A DNA stretch of 62,542 bases from Fragilariopsis cylindrus CCMP1102 (lineage: Eukaryota; Bacillariophyta; Bacillariophyceae; Bacillariales; Bacillariaceae). The stretch spans positions 1-62,542 of the forward strand of contig FMBT01000027.1 in assembly GCA_900095095.1 (NCBI GenBank), read 5' to 3'. Positions 7,964-28,670 of this stretch are shown here, in pieces. A program made the position numbers and the translations under genes. Numbering within the stretch: the first letter of the stretch is position 1; each line of letters opens with the position of its first letter. The notes under the pieces are model-generated. The model was given only the letters and a program-made list of their open reading frames with translations, was not told where the DNA came from and searched no databases.

Positions 7964-8173
7964 GTAATGTTTTTTGTTGATTGATCATGCAGCACTATCG
8001 CACGCGCTAATAGCTAGCTAGTTTAAAAAAGCAAGACTACGACAGGTATATATAAGTTTACTTACTTATCTATTGTTATAGTTATTTTTACTGTGCCACT
8101 ATTTTTGATACTTATTATATTGAATAATATGGTAAGCGTAGTTAAGTTAGTCTTGATCCCAACCCAAAGAAAG
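7964..8173 (+). repeat. Dispersed repeat, copy 1
   Basis: About 210 bp, repeated in the same orientation at 19915-20129 with only scattered differences. Shared words include GCACTATCGCACGC, TAATAGCTAGCTAG, TATTGTTATAGTTATTTTTA and CCCAAAGAAAG. It has no ORF. Its right end abuts the TG terminus of the gypsy 3' LTR, so the retroelement sits at its edge. Confidence 0.85.
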
Positions 8174-8419: not shown

Positions 8420-11104
8420 CTCTCCCACTAAGACGTAACTTCCATTGAAGTTGTCTTCAGCTTAATCTAATCCTTTGTACGGAGTAAACCATCTTGTAGA
8501 TTGTGTATCCGTCACTGTTGGTGTTCTTTGGATAGTTATGTTTCCATTTGTATGGGTGGCTAAGATTCGGAACGGTCCTGAAGATCTCTCCGACAGCTTT
8601 GACTTATTCCATACTATTTGCATAACTCTATCACCAACTCTAAAGTGATGCTCTATTCTTCTCTTATTTTGTTTGATTAGATTTTCATCTATCATTTGTT
8701 GTCGACCATTCCATATGGTTTCTAAGTTCGCTATCAGGGGTACGTCCATGATCATATCACGACCATACACCATAGCTCCTGGGGTTGTGCCGATTGGTGC
8801 ACTTACTGAACATCTCATTGCATGCATGCATGTTGCTAATGCATTATCCATTACTTGATTGGCATCATTCATATTTTGTGGTGGATTTGTATGTAGTACT
8901 ACTCGAAGTATATCACTAATTGTTTGATGCATTCTTTCACATATTGCGTTGGCTTGTGGATTCCGTACGGCTGTGCATACATCCTTAATGCCATATCGTG
9001 CAAGCAATTCCACAAACGTCCAACCAGTAAACTCTGTTCCATTATCATGTACACATCGATTTGGTCTTGGGTATCGAGATAGCCATGAGTTCTCAAACTG
9101 TTCGGCTACATGTACCATTGTTTTGTTCTGAATTCTGATTAGTTCAACGAGATTTGTTACAGGATCAATACATGTTAATGCTTTGAATACACATATGTTA
9201 CCATTGACCACAATTTCCCACGGACCGATCAAGTCTATGCATACTTCATTCCATGGTGCTATATTTGCATGTCGTGGAGGTAGTTTTCCATAACCTCGAC
9301 CTTGTTGTTTATACATGTGACAATTTTCTGGACATACATACTCTCTGCACAGTACAGATAATCTTTCTGCATGGAATCTTGCTTTTATTGTATTATAAAC
9401 CTTTGTGAAACCACAATGTCCTAATATCATATGATACCATCTTATCACACTTCGTATCATTGATTGGGGTAGGTATATTTTCCATTCGTTCTGTAACACT
9501 TCCGGATTAGCTCTATAGCATATTAAGTTCCTTTCGTTGATCACCTTAATCGGAAAGGTATTTGGATAAGCTAATGCTGTTTGTCGTAATGCTGCGTCCG
9601 CAGCTTGATGTTGTTGTATATTGTTCACTGTCGTTGGGCAAACCATCTCCTGCAGCGTAGGAAGGTTCATGAACAGCTCTATTATTTCAATGTTGTCATT
9701 CCGACATATCGTTGGTAATATTGGTGGATCCTTATCTTCTTTGTCATATGAAAAGAATACATCTTGTTCATCTTTTGGAACCACTATCTTATTCCAATCA
9801 ATAAGTTTTCCTTTTAACTCATTCTTCCCCGGCGGCGAGGGTCCATTCATTCTAGGGAGCCTTGAAAATGCGTCCGCTAGTACATTAACCTTTCCTGGTA
9901 CATAAGTTAAGTTAATATTGTAATCTTCCAGGAATAACTTCCATCTCATCACCCTTGGTGGTGATAGGGTATGGAAGGTTAAATTTTTATGATCGGTGAA
10001 GACGTTTAACCGACCACCGTATAAAATATCATGATATTCTTTTACACACATCACAATTGCAAGAAGTTCCTTCTCTGTTGTGTTGTAGTTCTTTTGTGAT
10101 TCAGTTAGTTTCTTACTCCAGTATGCAATTGGCTTTCCATTCTGTAGAATCGCAGCTCCTAGCTGATAGTCACTTGCATCTGTATATATATCAAAAGGTA
10201 GATTTAAATCGGGGTAAGTAGTCATGGCGTCTGCTGCAATCATTGCTTTCATTGTTTCGAATGCTTCGACTTGTCGAGGTCCCCATATAAAGGGAATATC
10301 ACCTGTCAATTCATGGAGTGGTGCTAGTATGTGAGATCGACGAGGCCACATACTCTTGTAGAAAGTCACTGCACCTATGAATGATCGAACTTGTGATTTG
10401 TCTGTTGGTCTACCCAACTTTAGAAGTGCTTCTATTTTGTTTCTCATAGGAGTGACTCCGTCCGGAGTCATATAATGTCCTAGGAAGTGTGCTTCTTTCA
10501 CTCCCCATTTGCATTTTAGTGGATTACACTTCATACCATTTGCTGTTAGTCTTTCCAAAACTGTATCAACAATATGCATGTGATCATCGAATGATCCTTT
10601 CGTCCATATACCCAAGTCGTCCATATAAGCATCAATATCTAAACCTTGTAAGATTTTCTTTATCATAGATTGTGCGAAATCTGGCGAGACTTTAATGCCC
10701 ATTGGTACACGATTATACTGGTATTTTCCAAACGGTGTAGTAATCGTACAGAGCCTCTTGCTCTCTTCATCCATTTCAAAACAATAGGACATCATTGAAA
10801 GATCAATCTTTGTAAAGTGACTGTATCCTCTTTGCTTCAGCATGATGTCTTGTATCCTTGGTACCGGGTACTGTGGACGTTCTAAATGCTTATTTAATTC
10901 ACGAAAATCGTTTACCCATCTAACTGTATTGTTACTCTTTGGGATTATAAATGTGGGCGACGCCCATTCTGTCATACCACACGGACGTAATACACCGTCC
11001 TTGACTAGATTGTCTAATTCTTGTTTGAAGACGTCTTGTCTTGTATATGGTACAGGGTACGGCTTCTTATGCACTGGCTTTGAGCCTTGTTTGATTTGTA
11101 AGTG
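8174..11104 (-). mobile_element. Ty3/gypsy retrotransposon, 5'-truncated
   Basis: Minus-strand element made of polyprotein ORF, polypurine tract and 3' LTR. Gag, protease and 5' LTR are missing. The break lies at about 11105, where the arm of a foldback element begins. The right side of that foldback element carries unrelated sequence (an adenylosuccinate lyase fragment), so the missing half was deleted or moved. Confidence 0.75.
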
Positions 11105-11212
11105 CCCCCCTGCGCGCGACATGAGTCGAGTGATGAGTCGAGCGCTCGACTCTGAGTCGAGTGATGAGTCGAGCGCTCGACTCTGAGTCGAGCACTCGAG
11201 CGACTCAAGCAA
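8462..11212 (-). CDS. Gypsy Pol polyprotein (RT, RNase H, integrase), truncated at N-terminus
   Basis: An uninterrupted 916-codon ORF. Residues 1 to about 35 are translated foldback-arm DNA (Ser-Ser-Ala-Arg-Leu repeats) and not retroelement protein. True Pol starts at about HLQIKQGSKP. Reverse transcriptase has KIDLSMM and the YMDD box (about residue 196). RNase H begins with YTDASDYQLGAAI (about 340) and includes EKELLAI. Integrase shows an H2C2 zinc finger (HMILGH...CPENC), then the DDE residues in CIDLIGPW, VHDNGTEFTG and NAICERMHQ. RT, RNase H and integrase motifs all look intact, so decay is recent. It needs gag and protease from elsewhere to move. Confidence 0.9.
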   Translation of the reverse strand: MLESLECSTQSRALDSSLDSESSARLITRLMSRAGGHLQIKQGSKPVHKKPYPVPYTRQDVFKQELDNLVKDGVLRPCGMTEWASPTFIIPKSNNTVRWVNDFRELNKHLERPQYPVPRIQDIMLKQRGYSHFTKIDLSMMSYCFEMDEESKRLCTITTPFGKYQYNRVPMGIKVSPDFAQSMIKKILQGLDIDAYMDDLGIWTKGSFDDHMHIVDTVLERLTANGMKCNPLKCKWGVKEAHFLGHYMTPDGVTPMRNKIEALLKLGRPTDKSQVRSFIGAVTFYKSMWPRRSHILAPLHELTGDIPFIWGPRQVEAFETMKAMIAADAMTTYPDLNLPFDIYTDASDYQLGAAILQNGKPIAYWSKKLTESQKNYNTTEKELLAIVMCVKEYHDILYGGRLNVFTDHKNLTFHTLSPPRVMRWKLFLEDYNINLTYVPGKVNVLADAFSRLPRMNGPSPPGKNELKGKLIDWNKIVVPKDEQDVFFSYDKEDKDPPILPTICRNDNIEIIELFMNLPTLQEMVCPTTVNNIQQHQAADAALRQTALAYPNTFPIKVINERNLICYRANPEVLQNEWKIYLPQSMIRSVIRWYHMILGHCGFTKVYNTIKARFHAERLSVLCREYVCPENCHMYKQQGRGYGKLPPRHANIAPWNEVCIDLIGPWEIVVNGNICVFKALTCIDPVTNLVELIRIQNKTMVHVAEQFENSWLSRYPRPNRCVHDNGTEFTGWTFVELLARYGIKDVCTAVRNPQANAICERMHQTISDILRVVLHTNPPQNMNDANQVMDNALATCMHAMRCSVSAPIGTTPGAMVYGRDMIMDVPLIANLETIWNGRQQMIDENLIKQNKRRIEHHFRVGDRVMQIVWNKSKLSERSSGPFRILATHTNGNITIQRTPTVTDTQSTRWFTPYKGLD

Positions 11213-12040
11213 TTTTTTGCCTGGCCCTGTGTCCTAGTTTTCACTTGTATTCAAACAACAAAAATTATCCTATCATCATGACAATGGGATGTAATAAATC
11301 GTAGCTCCACCAATATAGCTCCATTTAATACAAACTATTAGACGAAATATTGATATTTGTACTCCTAACAAGCACGTAAAATTTTGGTTGAATTTGGTCA
11401 TTTGGAAAAAATGCTATGATGATTATTGTGGGTGGAAGGCACATTCGAATCACCAGGAATTGCCTGCCACCCACATAAATCCTCATAAATTTTTTTCTAA
11501 ATGATCAAATCACAGCGAAACTTTTTGTCTCTATTAAGCGTACAAATATCTATATTTCGTCTATAAAGTTTGTATTAATTGGGCCCATATTGATGGAGAT
11601 ACGATTCATTACATTTCCATTTTCATGTTGATGTGAATGCGGTAGTTCTCCATTTCAATTCTTAGTAATTGTCCTATAGAATTTTTTCTATATGATCAAA
11701 TCACAGCGAAACTTTTTGTCTCTATTAAGCGTACGAATATCTATATTTCGTCTATAAAGTTTGTATTAATTGGGCCCATATTAATGGAGATAAGATTCAT
11801 TACATTCCCATTGTTATGATGTTGTGATACAATTGAAAACCTTAAAAAAATATTTTCCTTGGACCAAACTAGAAATTGAGTCAAATCACTCGACTCAGAG
11901 TCGAGCGCTCGGCTCAGAGTCGAGCACTCGACTCTGAGTCGAGTGATGAGTCGAGCGCTCGACTCTGAGTCGAGCACTCGACTCTGAGTCGAGTGATGAG
12001 TCGAATCAGACTCATGTCGCGCGCGCTCGGTGGGGGTTGT
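11105..12040. mobile_element. Foldback/MITE-like element with palindromic arms
   Basis: About 930 bp. The left end CCCCCCTGCGCGCGACATGA and the right end, read inverted, CCGAGCGCGCGCGACATGAG are matching terminal inverted repeats. Inside each lies an array built on GAGTCGAGCGCTCGACTC (a perfect palindrome) and CTCGACTCTGAGTCGAG: 11120-11210 and 11885-12005. A 135-bp core unit occurs once inverted (11275-11415) and twice direct (11490-11630, 11681-11825). No transposase is encoded, so it is non-autonomous. Flanks read TTGTAAGTG and TTGTGAATA, possibly a degraded target duplication. Confidence 0.7.
11490..11825 (+). repeat. Direct repeat pair within the foldback element
   Basis: Two copies of about 135 bp lie 191 bp apart. 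They share CACAGCGAAACTTTTTGTCT, ATATCTATATTTCGTCTATA and TTGTATTAATTGGGCCCATA with few differences. A more diverged inverted copy lies at 11275-11415. Confidence 0.8.
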
Positions 12041-19914: not shown

Positions 19915-20129
19915 GTAATGTTTTTTGTTGATTGATTGCAGCACTATCGCACGCACTAATAGCTAGCTAGTTTAAAAAAGCAAGGCAGACTACGACTGGT
20001 ATATATACGTTTACTTACTTATCTATTGTTATAGTTATTTTTACTGTGTCACTATTTTTGATACTTATTATATTGAATAATATTATGGTAAGCGTAGTTA
20101 AGTTAGTCTTGATCTCAACCCAAAGAAAG
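19915..20129 (+). repeat. Dispersed repeat, copy 2
   Basis: Same orientation as 7964-8173 and nearly identical. It begins GTAATGTTTTTTGTTGATTG and ends CCCAAAGAAAG. Small indels distinguish the copies (for example GCAAGGCAGAC versus GCAAGAC). Confidence 0.85.
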
Positions 20130-21838
20130 CAATCAGAGACACTCTTAGTTATATAATGCATCCTCTTGTAATCTCATCTCATAGGGTTAGGGCCATAAGT
20201 CTCCATTGGTTAACACAACACAACACAACAAAACACAACATATTAGCCTAATTCTATCTCCATCAAGAGCAATTGGTAGAGGGGGGGGGGTTAGCCAACA
20301 CGCATCAGATTAGCACAGTAATGATAGGTCAGAGAAACTTTATAGAATAGAAACTTAGAGCTAAAAATATATCTCAATTCATAGGCGCAGTCTTGATGTA
20401 ATTATACTATCACTTTGTGTTGGTGATGACATATATCATACTCTCACTGTTGTTACACTTCAATGCTTTGGTTCTGTTAGCTTCAGCAGTCATAGCAAGG
20501 AAACTAAATGTATATATATAATATATCTATATATATAATATAATATAAATAATAAATAGCTAGATGGCTATTTGAAATCTTCAATATCTTAAATTCAATC
20601 AAGAAGATCACTACTTGCATGTGGTTACTCCACTATCATCAAAAGGCAAGAGTGGAAGATAGGGAATATGTTGCTTATTTGGCATCATCACATCTGTAGG
20701 AGACCCAGTTTGGGTAACAATTCTTCTCACATCCTCTCTCCAAAGATCTCAAGAAGAAGAGCCTTTAACTAACACCTTTTTATTACTATTATTACAATGA
20801 TATTGGTATTGTTGTCTGTCAAAATTGTCCTATTGTATTTTTGTGGTATGTTTGCTTTTCTGCCTTTCTTTGTTTTATTCACTTTTCATTCACTACTTTA
20901 TCTGATGTTTAGCCCAAAAATGCTATATGCTAGTAAATAGGTATGAATGATACATACCCCCCCCCCCCCCCACCCCACCCCCCTCTCTCTCATTTGAATG
21001 AACATTGAAACACCAGCTTCATTCATAAAAAGGCTCCATCAGTATTAAGGTAAAATATAGAGGGACATTATAGGACCTAATAGTAATTAGTTAGGCATAT
21101 AATTATTGATATATTGTAGTTTACATAATAATGTATTCACGTGATCTTTAAAACAAGGTTAAAATTCAACAAAAAGGAAACAGACCAAAGCCTGGCATGA
21201 TAAATAATAAGACAATGCTTACTAGCATCTTTGGCCCATGATTAACACACAAATTGAACCCTGCTGGGTGACATTGCAGAGCACTTTGAAATAGGAACAT
21301 AAGAGCTACTACTACATGTATTGCAAGTTACTGGAAAGATGTGTGTGTGTGTGTGCGTCTCTCTTTCCTGATATGATGTTATCTGCATACAAATGTGATT
21401 AAATCACAAACACTATGTGTCAGTGGGTGGGATGTCTCTACATTATATTTATACAGGATACAGCCTTCCAATATATGTACTCAATTAATGCAGGAGCTCA
21501 TTTGATTATTATTGATGCTTCTTCATTTATAACTAGTAATGAGCACTGAGCTTTTTGACCTGGCATATCTTCATGTGTTGCCTGTCTCACACATAACAAA
21601 CACTGTAATTAATGGGAAGCAAGTTTTAAATTCTACTTTTAGAATTGTTTCTGTGTAATTACATAACAGAGTCAGTCTATTCACAATTAAATTAAGTTTG
21701 AAGATAATCCAAGCTTGTTATATCTTAATTTGATTGATTGCGCCCAAAAAGAAGAGACCGAGTTCAGAATAGCTTATAAACTAACGTAGTAATTATTACA
21801 CAACAATCGTTTTTACGTTTTATTCGATACCTCTACCG
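20130..21838. other. CpG-depleted, gene-free segment
   Basis: I count about four CpG dinucleotides between 20161 and 21720, where base composition alone would predict dozens. Flanking sequence is CpG-rich. The segment holds a G-run near 20280, a long interrupted C-run (20957-20985), an AT dinucleotide block (20510-20560) and a TG block (21340-21357), but no ORF and no recognisable transposon protein. It lies directly after dispersed repeat copy 2. Confidence 0.7.
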
Positions 21839-23287
21839 CTACAGCCCAAAATCTTCCATCATGGACGCCATTTTAAGAATGTCAACATTACCGCCGCATA
21901 ATATAATGCCAACATTATTAATGCCGTGACTTTTTTTGTACTTCGTATTAAATTCCAAACTGTTTGCGACTGCAACTCCAACTCCAGCGGATGGTTCAAT
22001 GACAATTTTAAGTCGTTCCCATACTAGTTTCGTAGCTTGTAGAATTTCCTTCTCGGAAACAGTAATTATCTCATCTACAAAATCTCGTACCTGTTGAGAT
22101 ACATACAATCGAAATTGGTACAAACGAGAGAGAATGTGACCGAGTGAGTTAGCACTTTAATATATCTATATGTATTATTATTGCTGCTACCAATAAAGCT
22201 TCGATCGAAAATAGAGAAAATTTTAGTAAACGTACAATCGGCCAGGTGTTTGTACCAAGAGTTGTTCGTAGCCCATCCGCAACGCTATCGAGTACATTCT
22301 CGGGGTTATGCTTCAAAAGTTTTCCTTCTGTGAATGAACGCTTCGCATCGTCCAATGTTTCTGGTTCCGCTAGGATGATTTTAACTTTATCTCCTAGCAT
22401 TCCACGTATACTATTATAAAAATATGTGATAAATACAAATGATATTGAATATTACGTCGTGAGTCAGTCAGTGCGGTAAATTGATCCAGCAGAGTGATTT
22501 TGCAAAGACGATGACAGTGGCACGGCAGCGATACAATTTAGTATATAACTTACCACATACAATTTCCAGATGCTAAACCACCACCACCAACTGGAATTAT
22601 TACAGCATCCAAGTCGTCTACCCCCTTTAATAACTCCCGAACCTGTTCTATAAACTCCAGACACACAGTACCTTGCCCAGCAATAACTTTTGGATTTTCA
22701 CTTGGATGAATAAATACAGCTCCAGTAGATGAAACAATCCGTTCTGCTTCTTCTTTCCGAGCTTCGTTGGTGTTGTCGACTGTTACAATAGTGGCACCAA
22801 AATCTTGGACTGCCTGTTTTTTCACAAGTGGAGCAGTATTTGGCATAACAATAGTTGCCATAACCTTTGTGGTATTATTAGATGCTAATTTCGAAGCCAA
22901 TGCTAGTGCTTGAGCATGATTTCCCGAACTGTGCGTGACAACTTGGATCGTCGAAGTTGGTATTGTTGGTGTTTCTTCTTCTTCGTCGTCTATTTTATTA
23001 TTATTATTATTATTGAAAGTCTCCAATAATGCCATCACAGCATTTAACGCACCACGGAATTTGAACGATCCAGTTTTTTGCATTGCTTCAATTTTAAAGA
23101 AATAATTTTTCCCATCATCGTGATAAGATGTTGTCATGAGTGATCGACATGTCATGACAGGAGTAACATGAGCTATTCCTTTGATACGATCAGCAGCCTC
23201 CTTCACATCTTCAAAGGAGACACAATACTGTGGCGATGACGACGACGGCGACGATGATGATGTTATTGAAGATTCCATCTCTTTCAT
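21839..23287 (-). CDS. SRR: Serine racemase (PLP fold-type II), three exons
   Basis: Interconverts L- and D-serine, with dehydratase side activity. The spliced product is 386 aa. Exon 1 is 23287-22554, exon 2 is 22410-22236 and exon 3 is 22090-21839, with phases consistent throughout. The PLP lysine lies in KTGSFKFRGALNAV (about residue 76). SSGNHAQALALASKL binds substrate, HPSENPKVIAGQGT is characteristic of SRR, and the glycine loop is PVGGGGLASG. Exon 3 carries VWERLKIVIEPSAGVGVA and CGGNVDI. Threonine dehydratase is the main alternative. The lack of a C-terminal ACT regulatory domain and the close serine-racemase-like wording favour SRR. A poly-Asn/Glu insertion lies near residues 90-105. 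Intron 2 belongs to the introner-like family. Confidence 0.88.
22091..22235 (-). repeat. Introner-like intron copy A (serine racemase intron 2)
   Basis: 145-bp intron, donor GTACGTTTAC, acceptor CTCAACAG. Splicing joins TWPI to VRDFVDEI. From AATTTTCTCT to the acceptor it matches GST-HIT intron 2 with about eight differences in some 130 bases. Downstream exon sequence begins GTACG, repeating the first bases of the intron. Confidence 0.85.
22411..22553 (-). other. Serine racemase intron 1
   Basis: Donor GTAAGT at 22553, acceptor AATAG at 22411, 143 bp. Splicing joins SGNCM to CIRGMLGDK. It does not share the introner-like sequence. Confidence 0.8.
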
Positions 23288-23499
23288 AATTAATATTCCT
23301 CTGAAAATTTCATTCAGTTACGTTACGTCTTTTTGTCGTCGGTGTAGCTTATCCTCGTACGTCTTGATTCATTCGTCAATAATTCTGTGAATTATTGATT
23401 TAAAATTTAAATCAAGCTTATGAAATAATACCGGTAACTTAGAGATAATGTAGAAAAGGATTTAAAAACAAAACCTACCGCGCGGTTTTATATTTATTT

Positions 23500-23909
23500 T
23501 TAACCAAATGCTAAAGAGCAAAGTTCTCGTGATCGAAGATCCATTTGCGTGCGCGTCGTGTGTGTTCTTGCAAAGCCGAGCGAACGCTCCGTAACTTTAC
23601 CTACAGTACGTTCTGCATGATGCTCTTGAATTAATTTTTGGACTTGCTCTACAGTAGACACAAACACCCAGTTGACATCATCGGCATCTTGCAATTTACT
23701 TGAAGCAATCTTACAGAGCAGAATAAGGTGATAGCGGATCAGTAAAGAAAAGAGTATATTTTATAACTCAATTGATTTCATCACAATTACGAAGTATTAT
23801 ATTATCAAGTAACAAAACAAGCCAACAAAAACTAGAAACGAACGAAGAGGTCCTACATTAACATTTCAAATTTCAACGAAGAAGGCTGTTTTAAGAATTT
23901 CGCGGACAT
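23500..23909 (-). CDS. Small hypothetical protein, two exons
   Basis: A proposed 83-aa gene that I do not recognise. Exon 1 (23909-23857) begins MSAKFLKQPSSLKFEML, and exon 2 (23698-23500) continues IKLQDADDVNWVFVSTVEQV and ends SRELCSLAFG. Donor AT-GTAGGA and acceptor TTCAAG give a 158-bp intron and an in-frame total of 252 bp. It is divergent from DDX6, with about 185 bp between the start codons, so the two may share a promoter. The exon 2 ORF has non-random composition (charged, few low-complexity tracts). The exon 1 assignment is an inference. Confidence 0.4.
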
Positions 23910-24094
23910 ATAGACAGACGATTTCAGTACACTTTCTACGTAAGATCGAAAGCAGTGGTATTCACAAAAAATCGTGTCAAAAACAAAAACAAAACAAAAC
24001 AAAAAAGAGATTGAATACTAATAACTAATATTAACAATCAATTATAACGAACAAGAGGTTTAAAACACCACATAAACATCACATTATTATAAAG

Positions 24095-25787
24095 ATGGCA
24101 TCAATTCAAAAGAAAGCCTCACATCAGCAGAACGGAAACAGCTCCAAGAATACTGTTATTGAAGGAACTGGAACATATAAGGATGGCCTAGTTGAACCAA
24201 CGAAAGATACACGATACAAGACTGAAGATGTAACAGATACGAAAGGTAGAGAATTTGAAGATTTCTTCTTAAAGAGAGAATTATTAATGGGAATTTTCGA
24301 AAAAGGTTTCGAACGACCATCACCGATCCAAGAAGAAGCAATTCCTATCATCCTACAAGATCGTAATGTCTTGGCACGAGCCAAGAATGGTACTGGAAAG
24401 ACCGCAGCTTATATCATTCCATGCCTAGAAAAAACAGACACTGAATCAAAAATTATTCAAGGTAAATAAAATATGCTCATACATACGAACGAACAAAAGT
24501 GAAAATGTACTTGCTTAATCCACATACATACATCCAAACAAACAAACAAAAAAGAAGGAATTAACTTTACAAAACTTCTTTTCTTCGCGACGAAATATAT
24601 AATGACTCTGAAAAAACTCCACCGGATTTACTCACATACAGTACTAACATTTATCCCCCTTTCATGCTTTCTCTTTCATTTTGTACCTGTTAGTTTTGAT
24701 TTTAATCCCAACACGAGAACTGGCACTCCAAACATCTGCCATCGTGAAAGAAATGGGCAAACACATGGGAATACAATGTATGGTCACTACTGGAGGAACA
24801 TCACTAAAAGATGATATTATGCGTCTCTACAACACTGTGCATATTGTTGTAGCTACTCCTGGACGTATTCTTGATCTTGCATCTAAAAAAGTTGCTGATT
24901 TAAGCGACGTAAAAACAATCATCATGGATGAGGCAGATAAGCTTCTATCGCCTGAATTCCAACCTGTTTTGGAACAAATTATTAACTTCTGTAACAAGGA
25001 CCATCAAATCTGCTTGTTCAGTGCAACCTTTCCCGTCACCGTGAAGGATTTTTGTAAACGGTTCGTACCGAACGCATACAGTATCAATCTAATGGACGAA
25101 CTTACACTTCGTGGTATCACTCAATTTTATGCCTACGTTGAAGAGAGACAAAAGGTCCATTGTCTTAACACACTATTTTCGAAACTCGAAATCAATCAAA
25201 GTATCATCTTTTGCAATTCTGTCAATCGTGTTGAATTATTGGCCAAGAAAATTACCGAACTTGGCTACTCTTGCTACTACATCCATGCCAAGATGCAACA
25301 AGCTAATCGAAATCGTGTTTTTCATGAATTTCGTAACGGTGCTACGAGACATCTAGTAACCTCTGGTAAGTTTATTACTATTATTATTATTATTCCTCGC
25401 CCATATATCCCATACACAACTGCGACTGGATGTATGAGGCGATTCTATACCCTCTTTCAATATTCATACAATATCATCTTTACTAATTTCCATCCTCTAC
25501 CTTTATTTGTTATTGTCTTCTTATTTAATTTTCTTTGTTTTTAAGACTTATTTACCAGAGGAATTGACATCCAATCAGTCAATGTTGTCATCAATTTTGA
25601 TTTCCCGAAAAACAGTGAGACCTACCTACATAGAATTGGTCGATCGGGACGATTCGGTCATTTGGGACTCGCTGTCAACTTAATAACGTCCGAAGATAGG
25701 AACAACCTTCGACGTGTGGAACAAGAATTGGGTACAGAAATCCGTCCCATTCCTCCTTCCATTGATCGTAGCCTGTACGTTGGCTAA
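24095..25787 (+). CDS. DDX6: DEAD-box RNA helicase DDX6/Dhh1 family, three exons
   Basis: Cytoplasmic ATP-dependent RNA helicase of P-bodies that couples decapping and translational repression. Spliced length is 426 aa from exons 24095-24461, 24694-25365 and 25546-25787, with phases closing exactly. The Q-motif region reads [15 protein letters not shown]. Motif I is AKNGTGKT, Ia [15 protein letters not shown] (about residue 200), III SAT and [12 protein letters not shown]. Dhh1-specific wording includes [20 protein letters not shown] and [20 protein letters not shown]. The N-terminal extension before the helicase core is short and lacks a targeting signal. No frameshift is present. Confidence 0.95.
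24462..24693 (+). other. DDX6 intron 1
   Basis: Donor GTAAAT, acceptor CTGTTAG, 232 bp. Joins KIIQ to [10 protein letters not shown]. Confidence 0.85.
25366..25545 (+). other. DDX6 intron 2
   Basis: Donor GTAAGT, acceptor TTTTTAAG, 180 bp. Joins RHLVTS to [10 protein letters not shown]. Confidence 0.85.
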
Positions 25788-26248
25788 ACTAGCTATTTAG
25801 GGGTGGAGCGAACTATTGGTGGGGGTTGGACCTGAACGTTTTCGTTGTCAATAGTTTTGTAAAAGAAAGTTACTCGATTACGAACTATAATATGATTATG
25901 AACGGGATCATCTCCTACCAAGAACTCTCCATCCTTTTTTTTATTTCTTTTTCTTTTTGGCCTCTTTGTAATGGGATATGATACTATGGAAGATATCAAT
26001 GCATAATAATACGAAATGAACAATATACATGAACAATAGGATAATACGAGAGTTGGTGTAAAAATAGAATGAAGACATTACAAGGCGCTACATTTTTTTT
26101 CTTCTTTCAATATTGTATTTTTTAGTGCATTGCAATAGCATAGGCAATGATCTTCCACTTGTTATCTCTATTAACCGTTTGCCGATTGGATTATATTATG
26201 AAGATGTATGTATATTCATTTATCTGAGATATGACTCAGTTCTAAATT
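25788..26248. other. Convergent 3' spacer
   Basis: 3' flanks of DDX6 and of the GST-HIT gene. No further gene was seen. Confidence 0.5.
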
Positions 26249-28248
26249 TTAACCAGGAGGCCAGTTGAAATCACGTCCACCCAACACGTGAACTTAGATT
26301 TCATTGTAGCAGTAAGCAATCATGTAAGCAGTATTGATAATGGAAGATTAGCAAACGATGGTAAATGAAACGGCATCAAAAACAGAATAATTTTAAAACA
26401 CACAAAAGCACCCGCATTAATGGCGTAGAGAGAGAGAGGGATCAAGGCTTGCATACACACACACACACACACGCACACACACGTACCATGTAGATGAAAA
26501 ACTTCTTGGCCTGCCTTCGCACCGTCGTTAATCACAATACGTGCACCGTCTCCGAAGCCAAGAGATTCATCTTTAGCAATTTCACCCGCTGCCACCATTA
26601 GCCGTCCAAGGATCTCGTAATGCTCTGGTGTTGACTTACTAAGACGGGTAAGACCATCACGATCCTTAGGAATGACAAGAACATGTGCCGGTGCCGCTGG
26701 ATTGATATCCTTAAATGCTAATATTTTGCCATCTTCTTTGACAATAGAAGCGGGGATCTCCCCAGCTAATATTTTATTAAATAGTGTATCTGGTTCGTCA
26801 TCTCGAAGTCCAGCCAACCAAATTGTATCCCAACGACCCTTTTCATCCCATTTGGCAAGACCACCGCTGATCTATTGTTTGTTTATTTGTTGGTGGGTTA
26901 GGATAGTATTGGTACAATCTCATTCCAGTGATGATAATGATATGCCCATTTACATACGACAAGATAGGTAGATGGTGAGAAAAGACACGTATGTTGAGAG
27001 CATTTTCCCAGACAGGGTTATTTGAAAAACTCTAATAGGTACACGGGATAGTAATGAAATCCGCACATAGTACATTCCAGTATCAATATTTCAACGTACC
27101 TCTTCATAGACCTTTTGAAATGCAACATCCGTGTCGATCATACGTTGAAACCATTCCTCGATCTTTTTTGGTACGAGTTGTTGCTGCTGGTCGTCCATTA
27201 ATTCTTTTTGATCAAATTTGGGAAACATAAAGGAAGCAAAGACGACAGAGGGAAATACGCTAGCATCCGCTAATGAAACTTCCTTTCCACACAAGTATGG
27301 ACCTTCATCGTCCATCATATTAGAAATAATGTATAATTGTTTCGAATATTCCTTCAGTGCATCCTTACGAGTACCAAATATACCAAATGGTGGTACAGCT
27401 CTATACAAACAAGTTTGAATGGTTGTTAGGTACATGTCGTGAAAGCGTGCGATTTCGTTACTTAATGGATTATCTGGTTGGAAGGATGGACCAAGATCAG
27501 AATACGACGACATTAGGTATCTACAAACTGTATCACTTTCTGCGATAGTAACTCCCGTAGTTTGACATTTCAATGATGGAATTTTTCCCTGGGGATTAAT
27601 AGAAAGATATTCCTCCGATTTAAATCCACCAACATCCATAACACTGATTACTGCACATTCCGATTCTGGAATTTCTTTTTTATACCTGTCGAGATACATA
27701 GGATCGAAATTGGTAAAACGAGAGAGAATGTGACCGAGTGAGTTAGCATTTTAATATATTTATATGTATTATTATTGCTGCTACCGATAAAGCTTCGATC
27801 GAAAACAGAGAAAATTCTGTCATTTCATTGATTTTAGCATCTAACGTACATAATGATTCGTGTCCTCGCACCATTATTTGAAACGGGAAGGTCGAACTGA
27901 AAATGGGAGAATAAAAAATGGGATACAAAACACAGGGGATGAGACCGAGTAAGTGAGTCAAGTCTTCGTATTGCTTCTAATTCACTGCTACCGATACAAT
28001 AAAGTTACGATCGAAGACCGAACAATCCTATCACTACTTTGATTCCATTCATTCTAACGTACAAGTAGATTCTTGGCTGGTGGTGGTGTAATACTGCTGC
28101 TGCTGCTACTGCTGCTCGTAGTAGTGCTATATATAGCAGTACTGGTAGGCATTGCCTTTAATCTGATACCACCTGTAAGTGCGTGTACTCGTGAAGAAGT
28201 CGTTGCTATTAAGGCACATTTCAACATCTTTAACGAATAGTTGAACAT
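26249..28248 (-). CDS. Glutathione S-transferase fused to HIT (histidine triad) domain, five exons
   Basis: A 415-aa fusion predicted from exons 28248-28063, 27896-27850, 27685-27100, 26871-26487 and 26292-26249. All junctions are in phase. Residues 1-60 form a leader (Ser-rich, organelle-like). GST-N has FDLPVSNNGARTRIIMYKK and NPQGKIPSLK with the SNAIL-type ESD (IAESDTVCRY). GST-C carries GKEVSLADASVFP. After FQKVYEE, exon 4 continues ISGGLAKWDEKGRWDTIW into a HINT-like domain: DTLFNKILAGEIPAS, HVLVIPKDRDGL, INDGAKAGQEV. The triad is H399-L-H401-V-H403, interrupted by the last intron. The continuous frame upstream of DTLFN and the absence of an ATG for a separate HIT gene support the fusion. 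Glutathione conjugation plus nucleotide/adenylate hydrolysis is the implied chemistry. Confidence 0.75.
26293..26486 (-). other. Intron inside the HIT triad
   Basis: Donor GTACGTGTGTG runs straight into a TG/CG microsatellite. Acceptor ATCTAAG. 194 bp. Splicing completes HLHVHVLGGRDFNWPPG. Confidence 0.8.
26872..27099 (-). other. Intron joining GST and HIT coding parts
   Basis: Donor GAG-GTACGTTG at 27099, acceptor ACAATAG at 26872, 228 bp, phase 0. Without splicing the GST ORF would end one codon later. Confidence 0.7.
27686..27849 (-). repeat. Introner-like intron copy B (GST-HIT intron 2)
   Basis: 164 bp, donor GTACGTTAGATG, acceptor CTCGACAG. Nearly identical to serine racemase intron 2 over its last 130 bases (TCGATCGAAGCTTTAT, GGTAGCAGCAATAATAATAC, GCTAACTCACTCGGTCACAT). 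The downstream exon begins GTATA. Confidence 0.85.
27897..28062 (-). repeat. Introner-like intron copy C (GST-HIT intron 1), diverged
   Basis: 166 bp, donor GTACGTTAGAATG, acceptor CATTTTCAG. Shares ordered blocks with copies A and B: GTACGTTAGA at the donor, CTTCGATCG, CTTTAT, CGGTAGCAG, then CTCACTTACTCGGTC. It is clearly related but older or faster evolving. Confidence 0.7.
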
Positions 28249-28670
28249 GATAACTTATGAGTATAATGTTAGCGTCGTCGACGAAACAAGACAACTACTT
28301 ATATTTTGTTTACATTGATTCATTGATTGATTGTTGTAGCGTTCTCAATTCTCATCTCCTTCATTTTTTGAGGATTTGTCGGATGTTCAATGTGTCAAGA
28401 ATGATTTCAGTCGAGTGAGTCACACTTGCAAAGCGCGCGCAAAAACAAAATACGAAAGTCGCAAATGTACTAATAACGCCTATTACAGTAATAATCATTC
28501 GTTTCTGACTCTGTCTCATTCGATCTTTGTTTGTGCTACCCCATAACTATTTTTCTAATTTGCAAATCATTGTCTTCCTGAGAGGAATCCGATAGCAGTA
28601 GACACCGGATTACGTTTTATTTATTTCACATTTGCATACTGTGCGATATACGTGTCGTACATAAAAGCAT
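28249..28670. other. Divergent upstream spacer
   Basis: Lies between the GST-HIT start and the HAD-like gene. No gene was seen. Confidence 0.4.

Follow-up and report, generated by a model that had tools for sequence, protein, structure and literature searches.

A local micro-family of three related introns in two unrelated genes

Host genes and the three related introns

The window analysed here is a contig of 62,542 nucleotides (C662) from an assembly of 818 contigs that total 67,884,144 bases (67.9 Mb). It carries a serine racemase gene (SR, with introns SRi1 and SRi2) and a GST-HIT fusion gene (26250-28248, minus strand) with four introns, GSTi1-GSTi4, all starting GTACGT; a DEAD-box helicase gene in the opposite orientation lies between the two. 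Three of these introns, SRi2, GSTi1 and GSTi2, are copies of one sequence, lie on the same strand and are bounded by splice sites, as the initial annotation had proposed, and the coordinates it assigned to them (Table 1) are correct, each intron having GT...AG ends on the minus strand. GSTi1 and GSTi2 share one gene. SR matches PF00291 and the other host gene matches the GST_N and HIT families, indicating that the hosts are not paralogues.

The near-identity claimed for SRi2 and GSTi2, about eight differences in about 130 bases, is borne out by BLAST, which aligns them at 93.9% identity over 132 columns; their global alignment (z = 23) exceeds all of 300 shuffles preserving dinucleotides and splice ends. 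GSTi1, previously described as a homologous yet more diverged third copy, is indeed about 65% identical to GSTi2 from end to end, with 56 substitutions in 158 aligned columns and 8 gap events (global z = 8.5), and also resembles SRi2 (global z = 5.2); none of 300 shuffles reaches the score in either comparison. With SRi1 and GSTi3 as controls, six of seven pairs give global z values of -0.1 to 1.9 (GSTi1-GSTi3, 0.4; GSTi3-SRi1, 0.3), while SRi1-GSTi1 is weakly raised (global z = 3.2, 0/300; local z = 2.3, 11/300). The GSTi3 control slice began 3 bases ahead of the intron and ended without its last base. By this shuffle test GSTi3 is unrelated in sequence to the three related introns.

The homology spans nearly the whole introns and ends no more than about 3 bases beyond the acceptor (22088-22222 against the GST-HIT copy on contig C679). 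Between SRi2 and GSTi2 the similarity extends to the acceptor plus GTA, and in BLAST alone the match starts at intron bases 14 and 34. The two halves of this pair are the sole gapless direct repeats of at least 30 bases reported between 20000 and 30000. The blocks TTCGATCG, CTTTAT and ACTCGGTC are identical across four aligned sequences, and the block GGTAGCAG is retained in GSTi1 at a shifted position. All three introns share GTACGTT at the 5' end. SRi2 is the shorter copy and lacks a 5' segment common to GSTi1 and GSTi2, from which the SR allele on C679 retains four extra bases (ATGA). The direct repeat between intron start and downstream exon measures 5 bases (GTACG) at SRi2, 3 (GTA) at GSTi2 and 0 at GSTi1, so that the target duplication suggested earlier finds its counterpart at SR but only GTA at GSTi2 and nothing at GSTi1, and is equivocal overall. 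The upstream exons end in ATT, TAT and CTT across the three introns.

C662 and C679 are 98.8% identical across 17.7 kb and are taken as two haplotypes of one locus. For Fragilariopsis cylindrus, the assembly paper describes a diploid genome whose two copies are identical apart from stretches of diverged haplotypes, and it also warns, in the part drawn on here, that polishing may wipe out haplotype differences (PMC5634323). In a comparison over 19915-28414, the two contigs differ by 3-6% to the left of 22219 and are identical from 22219 to at least 28080, which places the switch point within SRi2. An assembly artefact is unlikely, the introns being present on both contigs at nearly equal spacing.

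All three segments are probably spliced out as introns, judging from the encoded proteins. After removal of SRi2, the alignment of the SR protein to the PDB serine racemases 5x2l and 3l6b runs through the junction with no gap, NTWPI/VRDFVDEI aligning to NTWPIIRDLVDDI of these proteins. The GST-HIT model has five exons and keeps its GST_N and HIT domains once the introns are removed, the GST_N match (residues 30-108) spanning the GSTi1 and GSTi2 junctions. A crude custom gene finder placed GSTi1 and GSTi2 at the same coordinates and did not join the SR exons. In a search with the GST-HIT protein, which gave 12 matches, residues 1-65 were matched by the two haplotypes only, plus two distant GST-like frames on C652 and C41 (25% and 22% identity) that cover these residues as single open frames; both are too distant for intron positions to be judged from them. 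On this search, a GST paralogue with the same introns was rejected.

Table 1. The three related introns and the exon sequences at their boundaries
Feature	Position	Strand	Description	Basis
SRi2	22091..22235	-	145 nt, phase 0, GTACGTTTAC...TCAACAG	sequence; SR splice model
GSTi2	27686..27849	-	164 nt, phase 2, GTACGTTAGA...TCGACAG	sequence, alignment, gene model
GSTi1	27897..28062	-	166 nt, phase 0, GTACGTTAGA...TTTTCAG; diverged homologue	alignment, gene model
GST-HIT exon 2	27850..27896	-	47 nt, separates GSTi1 and GSTi2, within GST_N match	
SR exon 2, last five bases	22236..22240	-	CGATT, abuts SRi2; joined exons read ATT/GTACG	
SR exon 3, first five bases	22086..22090	-	GTACG, as the first five bases of SRi2; candidate 5-base target duplication or microhomology	
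GST-HIT exon 3, first five bases	27681..27685	-	GTATA; only three bases match the intron start	

Copy number in the assembly and other duplications

At the sensitivity used, the 67.9-Mb assembly holds three loci of this sequence (six copies when both haplotypes are counted), all within about 6 kb. DNA searches with SRi2, GSTi1 and GSTi2 returned 4, 2 and 4 matches, respectively, none of them outside this locus and its C679 allele; these searches score the best candidates only, and the SRi2 and GSTi2 queries missed GSTi1, which is about 65% identical. The 20-base block CTYACTCGGTCWCATYCYCT, allowing up to 3 mismatches, gave 57 matches, of which 6 were exact and all at this locus or its C679 allele, none in the whole assembly had 1 or 2 mismatches, and 51 had 3 mismatches against 53 for a reversed-pattern control. 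A loose pattern, in which three short blocks must match exactly across wide gaps, was found six times, each time at this locus or its C679 allele (control 0); this pattern and CTYACTCGGTCWCATYCYCT do recover GSTi1. A 25-base block and the 30-base acceptor region, again with up to 3 mismatches, each gave four matches, all four at this locus or its C679 allele (control 0), these two patterns being specific to the SRi2/GSTi2 type and unable to detect GSTi1. When a family sequence model was applied to 24 of the 51 three-mismatch loci, the best score (L027, 13.2 bits) was no evidence of a further copy, because the match coincides with the pattern hit that selected the locus.

The initial annotation had read the introns as a multiplying introner family and had itself named a lack of further copies among the outcomes that would refute this. 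The DNA and block-pattern searches found no further copies, although very decayed copies lacking the blocks would escape them, and three loci clustered in about 6 kb of the whole assembly point to a local micro-family rather than a proliferating introner. As far as the copy searches reach, introner proliferation in this assembly is rejected. The chance of an unlinked copy landing within 6 kb is roughly 2e-4 (about 12 kb in 67.9 Mb).

With the whole 6.4-kb region as query, 11 matches were obtained, comprising the two haplotypes, one 117-base copy on C384 and eight short matches that fall at query positions 1758-1801, a CA-repeat sequence. The copy on C384 (510608-510724) corresponds to a 121-base piece at 23912-24032, upstream of the DEAD-box helicase gene between GST-HIT and SR, and is 93% identical with gaps counted (122 columns, with 2 mismatches and 6 gap positions). 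A 1.84-kb stretch of C384 ends in this copy; the stretch borders a reading frame with a weak match to an NAD(P)H-binding family and is missing from the allelic contig C499. Apart from the introns, then, one short piece of this region has a second copy elsewhere, which may bear on mechanism.

The haplotypes differ further to the left by an 11.7-kb segment of C662 (8174-19914) that is absent between matching flanks on C679 (224001-250000). Direct repeats of 210 bases (7964-8173 and 19915-20129, 93.5% identical) border it, and it contains a reverse transcriptase/RNase H/integrase reading frame at 8462-11212, plus other frames; next to the retroelement frame, at 11135-11997, lie direct and inverted repeats of 113-369 columns in a nested arrangement. 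Genome-wide, 53 matches to the ice-binding family PF11999 (DUF3494), some of them fragments of a single gene, suggest a large family expansion, and one locus matches the PDB ice-binding protein 6a8k (E = 6.9e-127). From its sequence, the source organism looks like a cold-adapted, polar diatom.

Age, direction and mechanism of copying

The reading we favour, with a probability of about 0.5, is that one spliceosomal intron was copied within a 6-kb neighbourhood, most likely by DNA-level templated repair, giving rise to a local micro-family. Such copying looks rare and local, in contrast to a genome-wide burst of multiplying introns. Over 141-144 aligned columns, SRi2 and GSTi2 show 8 to 11 substitutions, and the two SR alleles (C662 against C679) show 4 in 142 columns, some 5' columns being poorly aligned; from this, the copying between SR and GST-HIT seems to predate the split of the SR alleles slightly. 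GSTi2 is identical on both contigs and, lying in a stretch without haplotype differences, gives no allele depth. At the mutation rate given for Phaeodactylum in the literature drawn on here (4.77e-10 per site and generation), SRi2 and GSTi2 would have separated very roughly 6e7 to 8e7 generations ago. GST-HIT is more likely the donor and SR the recipient, since SRi2 has lost a 5' segment that is kept by both GSTi2 and GSTi1, the latter serving as outgroup, which favours this direction without proving it.

Under the favoured reading, an old event would have copied the intron within GST-HIT, yielding GSTi1 and GSTi2, and a recent event would have copied the GSTi2 type between GST-HIT and SR, 5.6 kb apart. 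The SR exon before the gain is predicted to have been intron-less (CCGATTGTACGAGAT), and an empty SR site would read ATTGTACGAGAT. A break in this exon at ATT/GTACG may have allowed the GTACG end of SR to pair with the identical 5' splice site T/GTACG of nearby GSTi2; copying would then have proceeded through GSTi2 until the strand returned at GTA, which lies 3' of the intron in both genes, leaving the present arrangement including the GTACG repeat at SR. The copied piece would have brought its own splicing signals and could thus be spliced out and tolerated. Since inexact pieces in coding exons are usually lost by selection, local DNA copying can explain the exact ends and the strand as well. 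In 18 reading frames chosen in the window (22,122 coding bases), there are 5 occurrences of TGTACG, the motif common to the donor junction and the target, and 23 of GTACG.

Several observations weigh against this reading. The coincidence of the ends with splice sites is a direct prediction of reverse splicing. The GTACG repeat was noticed post hoc, with only GTA at GSTi2 and none at GSTi1, and on that account the DNA route is given about even odds. GSTi3 and GSTi4 likewise start GTACGT, which makes the shared start alone weak evidence. In addition, flanking repeats of at least 5 bp are reported at 26% of conserved Drosophila introns in the passage of the review used here (PMC3443670), and an earlier SR intron may possibly have been overwritten by gene conversion. 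We suggest only tentatively, as a rather doubtful extension, that the 5' splice-site sequence itself could act as the microhomology that primes DNA-level copying into nearby exons with the same motif, so that introns spread locally. If true, neither a transposon nor reverse splicing nor reverse transcriptase would be needed to make ready-to-splice new introns, and their spread would leave a distance-dependent footprint of the sort discarded by surveys demanding at least four copies.

The strongest competitor, possible but rather unlikely, is splicing-mediated transposition, in which the intron, once spliced out, inserted by reverse splicing into the mRNA it came from (GSTi1 to GSTi2) and into the SR mRNA, followed by reverse transcription and recombination into the genes. 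All three copies are sense-oriented and splice-site bounded, no inverted repeat links the intron ends, and two copies in GST-HIT fit reverse splicing into its own mRNA. However, this route does not predict the 5.6 kb between donor and target: the distance fits local DNA copying, whereas the exact boundaries fit reverse splicing. The opposite-strand helicase gene between the hosts also makes a shared GST-HIT/SR transcript unlikely. The proto-splice site consensus is AG/, and none of the upstream exons, which end in ATT, TAT and CTT, shows it.

Less probable than reverse splicing is ectopic gene conversion or concerted evolution, whereby both genes already contained related introns, of which SRi2 and GSTi2 were made alike by a recent conversion. 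The presence of three related introns close together is consistent with it, as is GSTi1, whose far greater divergence implies a relatedness older than the recent event. However, an earlier spread of the intron is required anyway, the possession of a relative by SR is left unexplained, and GSTi1 escaped homogenisation despite lying only 47 bases from GSTi2.

Still more improbable is an introner family, that is, a mobile intron-making element that is either young with few copies or old with decayed ones. Splice-bounded, same-strand copies in unrelated genes and the 5-base repeat at one site resemble such elements, and a plain DNA search misses divergence at the level of GSTi1, so very old copies lacking the blocks are possible; but only three loci were found, within 6 kb, and no inverted repeat links the ends of SRi2, GSTi1 or GSTi2. 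A functional RNA or regulatory element hosted in the introns, such as a snoRNA, was rejected as very improbable even though three blocks are invariant in four sequences and a fourth is kept, shifted, in GSTi1, because the introns contain no Rfam match at E up to 5, GSTi2 and GSTi1 fold no better than shuffles (z = -0.81 and 0.58), and the block lengths are in our judgement, not by computation, unremarkable at about 65% identity. The two Rfam matches obtained lie at 26393-26584, outside the three introns.

Relation to known forms of intron gain

Little is documented on how introns are gained other than in introner bursts. With its known neighbours, shallow divergence and short target motif, the recent pair SRi2/GSTi2 provides a clean test case, and the empty SR site may survive in other strains or sister species. 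Among the matches listed for literature on introners, intron gain or transposition, and diatoms, mostly from non-subscription journals, this three-intron family is not described. The case reveals no new mobile element, and surveys demanding at least four copies would overlook others like it.

Introners, known from Micromonas and fungi, are likewise splice-bounded, sense-strand introns of similar sequence in unrelated genes. Gozashti et al. (2022) surveyed 3,325 genomes, found introners in 175 and kept only families of at least four introns (PMC9860276); its main text never mentions diatom, Fragilariopsis or Bacillariophyta. In the present genome, the hosts are non-paralogous (PF00291 against GST_N/HIT) and similarity begins near both intron boundaries, as judged without that paper's exact 15-base rule, but only three loci were found, with no spread past 6 kb. 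Transposon signatures, described there as common but not universal in introner families, amount here to direct repeats of 5, 3 and 0 bases, with no terminal inverted repeats.

In Daphnia, intron gains attributed to double-strand-break repair likewise carry a short direct repeat between intron and adjacent exon, comparable to GTACG here, as after a staggered break; the portion of the study used here reports 33 direct repeats of 4 to 12 bp common to neointron and adjacent exon (PMC4202315). The present case differs in that the insert matches a complete intron of a neighbouring gene.

The nearest known kind appears to be intron transposition or duplication, as in Mycosphaerella and Oikopleura, where an existing intron was likewise copied to a site in another gene, with few copies. 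A 2012 review counts 14 unambiguous transposition events in these two genera and, in the part cited here, reports no demonstration in vivo (PMC3443670). In the present case, 5.6 kb separates donor and target, and the putative gain is judged from this genome alone. The sequence part of the definition of intron transposition, high similarity to an intron of a different gene, describes SRi2 and GSTi2 well (93.9% over 132 columns, global z = 23).

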